A stretch of 64,000 nucleotides of DNA from Streptomyces sp. MRC013 (GTDB lineage: Bacteria > Actinomycetota > Actinomycetes > Streptomycetales > Streptomycetaceae). The notes under the pieces were generated by a model, which did not search any database, was not told the origin of the DNA, and saw only the letters and a list, made by a program, of their open reading frames with translations. The DNA lies in the NCBI RefSeq assembly GCF_023614235.1, contig NZ_CP094264.1:4526001-4590000 (forward strand). Reading direction: 5' to 3'. Below, piece by piece: positions 55,968 to 57,284 of the stretch; positions within the stretch are counted from its first letter, which is position 1, and the number at the start of each line of letters is the position of its first letter. Position numbers and translations under genes: made by a program.

Positions 55968-56996
55968 ATGACGGTACGAGTGGCAGTGGCGGGAGCGAGC
56001 GGGTACGCGGGCGGGGAGCTGCTGCGGCTGCTGCTCGCGCACCCCGGCGCCCGGATCGGCGCGCTGACCGGCAACTCCAACGCCGGGCAACCGCTCGGCG
56101 CGCTCCAGCCGCACCTCCTCCCGCTCGCCGGGCGGGTCCTGGAGCCGACCACCGCCGAGGTGCTCGCCGGGCACGACGTCGTGTTCCTCGCCCTGCCGCA
56201 CGGCCGGTCCGCCGCCGTCGCCGAGCAGCTCGGCGACGAGGTGCTGGTCGTCGACACGGGCGCCGACTTCCGGCTGAGGGACCCCGCGGACTGGGAGGAG
56301 TTCTACGGCTCCCCGCACGCCGGGACCTGGCCCTACGGCCTGCCCGAACTGCCCGGCGCGCGCGCCGCGCTGGAGGGGGCCCGGCGCGTCGCGGTGCCCG
56401 GCTGCTACCCCACCGCCGTGACGCTCGCCCTCTTCCCGGCGTACGTGCACGGCCTCGCCGAGCCCGAGGCGGTGATCGTCGCCGCGTCCGGCACCTCCGG
56501 CGCGGGCAAGGCGCCCAAGCCGGACCTGCTCGGCTCCGAGGTCATGGGCTCCATGTCGCCCTACGGCGTCGGCGGCGGCCACCGGCACATCCCGGAGATG
56601 GCCCAGAACCTCGGCGCCGCCGCCGGGCAGCCGGTCACCGTCTCCTTCACGCCCACCCTCGCGCCCATGTCCCGCGGCATCCTCGCCACGTGCAGCGCCA
56701 GGGCGAGGCCCGGCACCACCGCGCGCGACCTGCGGGCGGCCTACGAGAAGGCGTACGCCGACGAGCCGTTCGTCCACCTCCTGCCCGAGGGGCAGTGGCC
56801 CGCCACGGCGTCCGTCCTGGGCTCCAACGCCGTCCACGTGCAGGTCGCGTACGACGAGGCCGCCGACCGCGTCATCGCGGTCAGCGCCGTCGACAACCTC
56901 ACCAAGGGCACCGCGGGCGGCGCGGTGCAGAGCATGAACATCGCCCTCGGCCTCCCCGAGGAGACGGGCCTTTCCCCGATCGGAGTCGCACCGTGA
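55968..56996 (+). CDS. argC: N-acetyl-gamma-glutamyl-phosphate reductase
   Basis: A 342-residue enzyme of arginine synthesis (third step). NADP-binding [19 protein letters not shown], catalytic Cys146 in [11 protein letters not shown], and the conserved HRHIPEMAQ and [12 protein letters not shown] segments. AGGAGGAGGG precedes ATG 55968. It opens the argCJBDR cluster. The stop codon (56994-56996) overlaps the GTG of the first of three repeated micro-ORFs that separate it from argJ; in other Streptomyces argJ normally follows argC directly. Confidence 0.96.
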
Positions 56997-57088
56997 GCGT
57001 CGCGCGCGCGGCCGCCGGGCTGCGGACGGGGACGATGGCCGCGCGGGTGCGCTGCGCGGGCGGGGAAACGAACGGAGAAACGCAGTGA
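56993..57088 (+). CDS. Micro-ORF 1 of the argC-argJ repeat
   Basis: A 31-residue peptide starting [19 protein letters not shown] and ending GETNGETQ, with four Arg and one Cys. GTG 56993 overlaps the argC stop (GTGA) and its own TGA overlaps the GTG of the next unit. Such overlap favours translational coupling. It may be translated only to carry ribosomes toward argJ. No homologue is known to me. Confidence 0.4.
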
Positions 57089-57180
57089 GCGTCGCGCGCG
57101 CGGCCGCCGGGCTGCGGACGGGGACGATGGCCGCGCGGGTGCGCTGCGCGGGCGGAGAAGCGAACGGAGAAACGCAGTGA
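57085..57180 (+). CDS. Micro-ORF 2 of the argC-argJ repeat
   Basis: Second 31-residue copy; it differs from the first by EANGETQ in place of ETNGETQ. GGAGAAACGCA lies directly before GTG 57085, and the TGA overlaps the next GTG as GTGA. Confidence 0.4.
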   Translation: MSVARAAAGLRTGTMAARVRCAGGEANGETQ

Positions 57181-57284
57181 GCGTCGCGCGCGCGGCCGCC
57201 GGGCTGCGGACGGGGACGATGGCCGCGCGGGTGCGCTGCGCGGGCGGGGAAACGTACGGAGAAGCGAACGGAGAAACGCAGTGA
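57177..57284 (+). CDS. Micro-ORF 3 of the argC-argJ repeat
   Basis: A 35-residue copy carrying four extra residues ([11 protein letters not shown] end) from a 12 bp insertion, so the frame is kept. Its TGA (57282-57284) overlaps the argJ GTG (57281), completing an unbroken chain of overlaps from argC to argJ. Confidence 0.4.
   Translation: MSVARAAAGLRTGTMAARVRCAGGETYGEANGETQ

Follow-up and report, generated by a model that had tools for sequence, protein, structure and literature searches.

MIRUs, the mycobacterial interspersed repetitive units, insert at DTGA sites between the genes of an operon. The Rickettsia palindromic elements (RPE) are repeats that survive inside coding sequence by keeping the frame open, and in leader-peptide attenuators a short ORF stands before a biosynthetic gene. 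To our knowledge, REP, ERIC and other intergenic palindromic repeats carry no micro-ORF that overlaps the neighbouring genes at both ends. MIRUs are described as short dispersed repeats of 46–101 bp present at 41 loci. A 2025 review (PMC12548453), which cites Supply et al. 1997, presents them as apparently mobile units that insert at start codons in such a way that the ORF inside them is linked to the following gene by a −4 spacing; their effect on expression is given as probably small. A small ORF, trpX/trpM, lies in the trpCXBA operon of S. coelicolor, and PMC5036795 reports a phenotype for the trpM mutant.

In this work we analysed a window of 64,000 nucleotides from Streptomyces sp. MRC013 (NZ_CP094264.1, positions 4,526,001 to 4,590,000, forward strand), in which three tandem units bridge argC to argJ. 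We propose, with a probability of about 0.85, that they belong to a dispersed Streptomyces repeat, small and non-autonomous, that sits at DTGA overlaps and is tolerated since translation passes through it, and that the triplet was amplified recently; the dispersed family with its DTGA sites and empty sites, the preserved frame, the Shine–Dalgarno sequences and the covarying stem are shown by the sequences, and translation, re-initiation, near-neutrality and mobility are the parts of this proposal that we infer. A sequence-only reading of the same stretch knew of no description of the arrangement; the account that PMC12548453 gives of mycobacterial MIRUs uses the same terms, so it is not undescribed. 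For the Streptomyces version, no description was found in the titles and abstract openings that searches of open-licence PMC papers returned, which is no proof of novelty.

The array between argC and argJ

The sequence and the ORFs confirm the initial description of the array, with units of 92, 92 and 104 bp joined by GTGA from argC to argJ, and micro-ORFs that all start with GTG (Table 1). The TGA of argC is part of the GTGA at 56993–56996, and at many of the empty sites of related genomes GGAG precedes argJ in the same way as it precedes unit 1 here. Tandem Repeats Finder gives the array a period of 92, 2.9 copies, 97% matches and a score of 521, against 162 for the second-best array in the window. 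The peptides of units 1 and 3 have no match in Pfam, Rfam has no match at E ≤ 1 within 56700–57700, and neither a terminator-like site nor a sigma-70-type promoter was found in 56800–57500. Each unit carries a 7-bp stem, made of six standard pairs and one G–U in unit 1; unit 3 has no row in the alignment used for stem covariation. Beyond the array, argB overlaps the stop of argJ, and its frame (window 58429–58560) ends after 43 codons, and an ORF of more than 200 codons occupies the argB place in 74 of 80 relatives, S. somaliensis among them; the short frame is either a real interruption or an assembly base error.

Table 1. Positions of the argC–argJ array and its parts in the window
Feature	Position	Strand	Remarks
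argC, N-acetyl-gamma-glutamyl-phosphate reductase	55968..56996	+	ORF; Pfam PF22698, PF02774, PF01118
GGAG, Shine–Dalgarno-like	56982..56985	+	7 nt ahead of unit 1 GTG
Unit 1	56993..57088	+	micro-ORF of 31 codons, GTGA overlap at each end
Unit 1 stem	57005..57058	+	57005–57011 with 57052–57058 (family columns 13–19 with 60–66)
GGAG	57074..57077	+	7 nt ahead of unit 2 GTG
Unit 2	57085..57180	+	micro-ORF of 31 codons, GTGA overlap at each end
Unit 2 stem	57097..57150	+	57097–57103 with 57144–57150
GGAG	57166..57169	+	7 nt ahead of unit 3 GTG
Unit 3	57177..57284	+	micro-ORF of 35 codons, GTGA common with neighbours
Unit 3 stem	57189..57242	+	57189–57195 with 57236–57242; letters checked
12-mer	57245..57280	+	three near-copies, closing unit 3
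GGAG from unit 3	57270..57273	+	7 nt ahead of argJ GTG
argJ	57281..58432	+	first gene past the array; Pfam PF01960, E 2.9e-131

A dispersed repeat in Streptomyces

A search of the genome itself yielded another copy, lying behind gatA and ahead of the gene that follows it (X), with a GTGA overlap and an open frame of 31 codons. The family model R1, built from the sequence only of 13 units, added a third site, hisB–[29 codons]–[55 codons]–hisH (his names from reading the translated flanks), in which the 29-codon element has GTGA at its left and is followed by a 55-codon ORF and onward ATGA overlaps (L088, 1501–1756). The genome of MRC013 has therefore three sites, argC–argJ with three units, gatA–X and hisB–X–hisH. 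One more match in this genome (L003, 2840738) is weak, with an E of 1.1e-4, is not found by the family model at E ≤ 1, and was attributed to chance.

In a sample of the genus that includes MRC013, 46 of 121 genomes match at E ≤ 1e-6 (as counted from the listing) and 66 at E ≤ 0.01, some of these weakly, with up to 16 matches in a single genome. In a sample of the class, 23 of 394 genomes match at E ≤ 1e-4, and 17 of them, MRC013 included, belong to the genus of the window. The six class-sample matches outside the genus (L279–L284, E 1.7e-5 to 6.8e-5) we take as chance, because they are weak and lie amid long open frames where no DTGA-flanked unit is seen by eye. Actinacidiphila alni, of the same family, carries the insert, and the other named hosts are Streptomyces. 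When plasmids were searched by DNA, three Streptomyces records matched, each over 58% of the query, and a search of plasmids with the peptide as query gave no match. In the one plasmid record viewed (L285; NZ_CP108157.1, 114475–117527), a linear Streptomyces plasmid of 339 kb, the element again lies between argC and argJ, its micro-ORF stopping with a TAG that overlaps the argJ GTG by 1 nt; the gene table of this record, known to be incomplete, lists no gene at the element. Such a plasmid is a possible route for the spread of the element. Phage records contain no element at E ≤ 1e-3.

Coupling to the flanking genes

The relation of the element to its neighbours was classified at 91 loci of the genus, namely the gatA–X and hisB–X sites of MRC013 and the listed matches to about E 2e-8, with neighbours merged and the array of the window left out. 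At 72 of these 91 loci the element is coupled by DTGA at both ends into the coding frames of both neighbours: the upstream frame ends in DTGA, a chain of DTGA-linked micro-ORFs follows, and the downstream frame starts at the last DTGA. At four loci the element continues in frame into the downstream gene (fused), and the other 15 belong to neither class: 4 are broken, 5 have a different stop on the left side, 5 lack a clear upstream gene and 1 runs off. In the class sample, 25 of 36 loci from 13 other genomes are coupled, and the 11 others have no clear upstream gene (7), are broken (3) or have another stop (1). The loci that are not cleanly coupled (19/91 and 11/36) show TAA, TAG or CTGA at an end, no clear left frame, or a contig end. 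As a control, the same classifier was applied to the loci shifted in silico by 1 or 2 nt, and called only 25 of 182 and 16 of 72 coupled (14% and 22%). The fused class received 57 of 182 and 19 of 72 of these shifted copies; only the coupled class is therefore informative, and the four fused loci prove nothing on their own.

In an earlier classification 88 of 110 loci were intact, a count that includes 20 named argC–argJ loci and in which species are possibly counted twice. Homology of both flanks distributes the 88 intact loci over 29 gene pairs that look mutually unrelated, argC–argJ being the commonest site with 42 of 88, part of them fetched through ArgJ. The sequence downstream of the left TGA is nearly constant (GCG in 24 of 29 gene pairs), whereas downstream of the right TGA it follows the host gene, which places the beginning of the insert directly behind the left TGA.

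The micro-ORFs mostly have 30–50 codons, and the commonest unit is 92 bp long, reaching 149 bp at argC–argJ with further insertions. Tandem arrays of 2 to 4 units occur in other genomes, with a spacing of 87, 89, 90, 92, 114 or 119 bp; among 26 neighbouring pairs, several of which share an array, every spacing is 2 or 0 mod 3 and none is 1 mod 3. The arrays with a spacing of 0 mod 3 that we viewed form a single read-through frame. Eight loci (L125, L133, L141, L157, L174, L175, L152 and L150) hold copies or arrays that are read through as one frame and not coupled, their arrays being 0 mod 3; in L125, L133, L141 and L157 this frame continues into the downstream gene, and there the repeat may now be an N-terminal extension.

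Reading frame and history of the argC–argJ junction

The argC–argJ junction was compared in the best 80 of 589 argJ relatives, the argJ start being fixed by homology. Fifty-seven relatives have a bare 4-bp overlap and 23 have an insert. All 22 single inserts have a length of 2 mod 3 and leave a frame that runs uninterrupted between the stop of argC and the start of argJ. Their lengths, which were measured independently of the frame, take 11 different values between 59 and 149 bp; counting each length once, the chance that all are 2 mod 3 is about 6e-6. The element is poor in stops in every frame, with a stop in the +1 frame of 33 and in the +2 frame of 14 of 92 distinct units, so openness alone is weak evidence and it is the length rule that carries the argument. 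The micro-ORFs at this junction range from 20 to 50 codons by in-frame insertions and deletions, and L077 has two 92-bp units. The sequence-only reading had taken the kept frame as a hint of selection for translation, which agrees with the single inserts and with the coupled loci (72/91 and 25/36). It had also looked to relatives with one or no unit, and to frame-breaking copies, as signs of a neutral tandem duplication: relatives of both kinds exist, yet none of the 23 inserts breaks the frame. The family model matches 20 of the 23 inserts, and the inserts of L045 and L074 look, by their sequence, like shortened forms of the element.

Bare overlaps predominate at a second site too: of the gatA–X junctions in the best 30 of 121 genomes, 28 are direct overlaps and 2 are filled, MRC013 having one of the filled ones. 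In three genomes in which gatA–X is empty (L222, L225 and L230), the N-terminus of gene X varies in length, with short in-frame repeats right behind the GTGA overlap.

When mapped on the argJ tree, with the insert of S. chattanoogensis (L072), which looks like another repeat, scored as present, the presence of an insert requires at least 16 gains or losses, 7 of them forced by well-supported branches. Presence is still clustered, as shuffles average 20.9 changes and only 2 of 500 are as low. Close species can differ at the junction, L021 having an insert and L036 none. For 44 of 46 argC–argJ units, the nearest unit in another locus is also at argC–argJ, with a few possible same-species duplicates. 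Because the argC–argJ copies resemble each other, inheritance with repeated loss fits this junction better than repeated insertion, and we read these sequences as reflecting an old insertion at argC–argJ with many losses, the other sites having been filled separately; the tree of the element, with few columns, is poorly resolved. Losses may have occurred through the GTGAGCG direct repeats that flank the unit.

Peptide, Shine–Dalgarno sequence and stem

Diversity at codon positions 1, 2 and 3 is 0.187, 0.234 and 0.233 in 21 argC–argJ units (codons 3–24), and 0.240, 0.314 and 0.248 in 18 units at other sites (codons 3–24). It is 0.060, 0.040 and 0.182 in codons 3–24 of argJ at the same loci, 0.102, 0.052 and 0.265 near the end of argC, and 0.162, 0.122 and 0.254 in another stretch of argJ, limited to the 10 loci with an ArgJ of 383 residues because argJ lengths differ. 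With this flat codon-position diversity, purifying selection on the amino acids of the micro-ORF was not found, and the peptide is probably without function.

The four Arg residues counted in each of the three peptides of the window had suggested a link with arginine synthesis. The count is right, but it is not unusual: Arg makes up 13% of the residues of unit 1, against 19.5% in base-shuffled copies, and four per unit is also the mean at other sites. The mean number of Arg codons is 3.02 at argC–argJ (43 units) against 4.08 elsewhere (52 units). Arginine plays no part in the element that we can see.

A Shine–Dalgarno-like match of at least 4 nt precedes the right start in 27 and the left start in 24 of 29 gene pairs, against 32% of 2198 other ATG, GTG or TTG triplets of the same loci; for matches of at least 5 nt the figures are 20/29, 12/29 and 9%. 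The 7-bp stem (columns 13–19 with 60–66) is paired in 95.6% of cells in 42 units, two-sided changes occur in 6 of its 7 pairs (22 such cells), all five measures exceed every one of 500 shuffles, and pairing falls to 64.5% at most when the stem is slid along. The stem was proposed by RNAalifold on nearly the units on which it was later tested and is thus somewhat favoured by these figures, and kinship can exceed the shuffles. G–U pairs are kept on the sense strand, which indicates a structure in the mRNA or in the top-strand DNA. An inner hairpin (columns 16–21 with 26–31) finds no support, as two-sided changes occur in 1 of its 6 pairs and 459 of 500 shuffles are as high by this measure. The comparison of sequences indicates that the frame and the stem are under selection and the amino acids are not.

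Origin of the triplet

Among the relatives found, S. somaliensis DSM 40738 (L006) is nearest, its argJ DNA being 95% identical. A single 104-bp unit, showing 7 differences to unit 3, joins its argC to argJ. In the window, 2 sites separate unit 1 from unit 2, and either of them is obtained by removing 12 nt from unit 3, though in two different registers; the extra 12 nt are also present in the single S. somaliensis copy. One 12-mer gained or lost explains the difference between 92 and 104 bp. The difference had been taken for a 12-bp insertion in unit 3, and as a length difference this stands. As to its direction, 104 bp looks like the older state, because the single unit of S. somaliensis also has 104 bp and each of the shorter units can be derived from unit 3 by deleting 12 nt; it is units 1 and 2 that would have shrunk. 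From these alignments we infer an ancestor with a single 104-bp unit, amplified in this lineage, after which two copies shed a 12-mer separately. A recent tandem amplification is our best reading of the triplet, and bears out the earlier suggestion of a recent duplication of the junction, units 1 and 2 being nearly identical and S. somaliensis having one unit.

Discussion

In the mechanism that we propose, the element would insert into a DTGA at which two operon genes overlap by stop and start, and would use this overlap twice. The upstream TGA would now overlap the start of the micro-ORF of the element, so that the first micro-ORF would take over the Shine–Dalgarno sequence and start codon of the host, while the end of the micro-ORF would form a new DTGA at the downstream start, behind a Shine–Dalgarno sequence brought by the element. 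A ribosome leaving argC could then re-initiate on unit 1, unit 2, unit 3 and finally argJ. The passage of ribosomes would keep the operon translationally coupled, and the insertion would be tolerated for this reason; translation through the element would also keep ribosomes coming and the stem open. A bolder form of this model, which we regard as speculative and rather unlikely, is that the element is mobile across the genus and targets translational coupling itself, that it moves by a hairpin intermediate of single-stranded DNA or RNA into stop/start overlaps, and that its tandem copies form a relay for ribosomes; slippage would quickly alter the length of this relay, which would set the output of the downstream genes in re-initiation steps.

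Several other explanations bear on the same observations. What matters might be the stem at the RNA level, in mRNA stability, processing or polarity, the frame being open merely for the passage of ribosomes and the copies possibly being used by the host to set downstream expression. The covariation of the 7-bp stem with G–U pairs kept on the sense strand speaks for this, as does the flat codon-position diversity, which is expected for a constraint on RNA or DNA, and tandem arrays could serve as a ladder. Nevertheless, a hairpin of single-stranded DNA in transposition would give the same signature, the 29 gene pairs look mutually unrelated, and presence is patchy in close species at one junction, with the many changes on the argJ tree; we consider this explanation unlikely on balance. 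Patchy presence, near-identical copies and a copy number unlike that of the nearest relative found would also suit a neutral tandem duplication in which translation is unconstrained. This is improbable, given that the frame is kept in all single argC–argJ inserts over 11 lengths, that coupling is far more frequent than in the shifted control and that unit spacing is never 1 mod 3. It is very unlikely that the copy number is an artefact: it does come from one assembly, and the interrupted argB frame just downstream makes base-level errors possible, but the three units can be told apart by their length or by two sites, other genomes carry arrays of 2 to 4 units and L077 has two units at the same junction.

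The proposal of a dispersed repeat passed through by ribosomes also has to be weighed against readings that give the array a role of its own in the cell. A functional family of small peptides (31 aa) encoded at operon junctions, comparable to trpX/trpM in S. coelicolor, is hardly credible: the consensus is recognisable across genomes, and a small ORF of an amino-acid operon has a mutant phenotype according to PMC5036795, but the units show no third-position excess of change, vary from 20 to 50 codons at argC–argJ and, for units 1 and 3, are without Pfam match. The least probable explanation of all is one that serves arginine synthesis, either as a relay by which argC tunes argJ or as an attenuator that responds to arginine and senses it by its Arg codons; both go back to ideas of the sequence-only reading. 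The location in an arg operon, the four Arg codons per unit and the coupling architecture speak for them, and argC–argJ is the commonest site of the sample, part of its loci having been fetched through ArgJ. Against them, the element is found at 28 other gene pairs, Arg is less frequent at argC–argJ than elsewhere and than in shuffled sequence, no terminator-like site was found, and 57 of 80 relatives do without the insert. The attenuator is therefore abandoned, and of the translational relay one part survives: coupling from argC to argJ is the likely mode of action. A tuning of argJ to argC is not supported, given the empty junctions and the at least 16 changes on the tree.

The dispersed repeat that we propose is closest to MIRUs. 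Like them it is short and dispersed (29 gene pairs, three sites in the genome of MRC013), has units in the range of about 46–101 bp, single or in tandem, with 92 bp as the commonest size here, contains an internal ORF whose ends overlap the flanking stop and start (72/91 and 25/36 loci), and appears inserted into pre-existing stop/start overlaps, which are empty in 57/80 and 28/30 genomes at two sites. It differs in genus and order; we liken it to MIRUs by their description and do not claim that it belongs to MIRU proper, and its strong matches lie only in the genus of the window among the 394 class genomes, the six weak ones elsewhere being taken as chance. The Streptomyces element also has a covarying stem, in-frame nested repeats and fused arrays of 0 mod 3, for which we know of no counterpart in MIRUs. 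With RPE it shares the open frame, but RPE are located within genes and end up in the protein product, whereas the Streptomyces element lies between genes and recreates a start and a stop; the four fused copies (L125, L133, L141 and L157) come nearer to the RPE situation. Like REP, ERIC and other intergenic palindromic repeats it is short, non-autonomous and intergenic and has a hairpin. It resembles trpX/trpM as a small ORF between genes of a Streptomyces amino-acid operon; there a phenotype is described, while here the ORF belongs to a dispersed element and its peptide is without amino-acid constraint. It differs from leader-peptide attenuators in that Arg codons are not enriched, no terminator-like site was found and the element is not specific to one pathway.

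These results suggest that coupling-preserving repeats of the MIRU type are not only mycobacterial and are widespread in Streptomyces, with 46 of 121 sampled genomes. They are also a warning that small ORFs which recur in frame and coupled to their neighbours can belong to repeats and encode no functional peptide. Pairs of genomes with and without the insert at one junction, such as L021 and L036, provide a natural test of the neutrality of a re-initiation chain, and the covarying stem gives a handle on the movement of such elements.

Two more observations concern the inserts themselves. In seven argC–argJ inserts (L015, L053, L030, L005, L059, L008 and L017), a palindrome-like sequence of 24, 27 or 30 bp, multiples of three, lies inside the element. 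In S. chattanoogensis, the argC–argJ junction (L072, 2421–2500) is occupied by an apparently different repeat with GAGCGGAGCGAG motifs, of 80 bp and 27 codons and in frame; a second repeat family may use the same trick.
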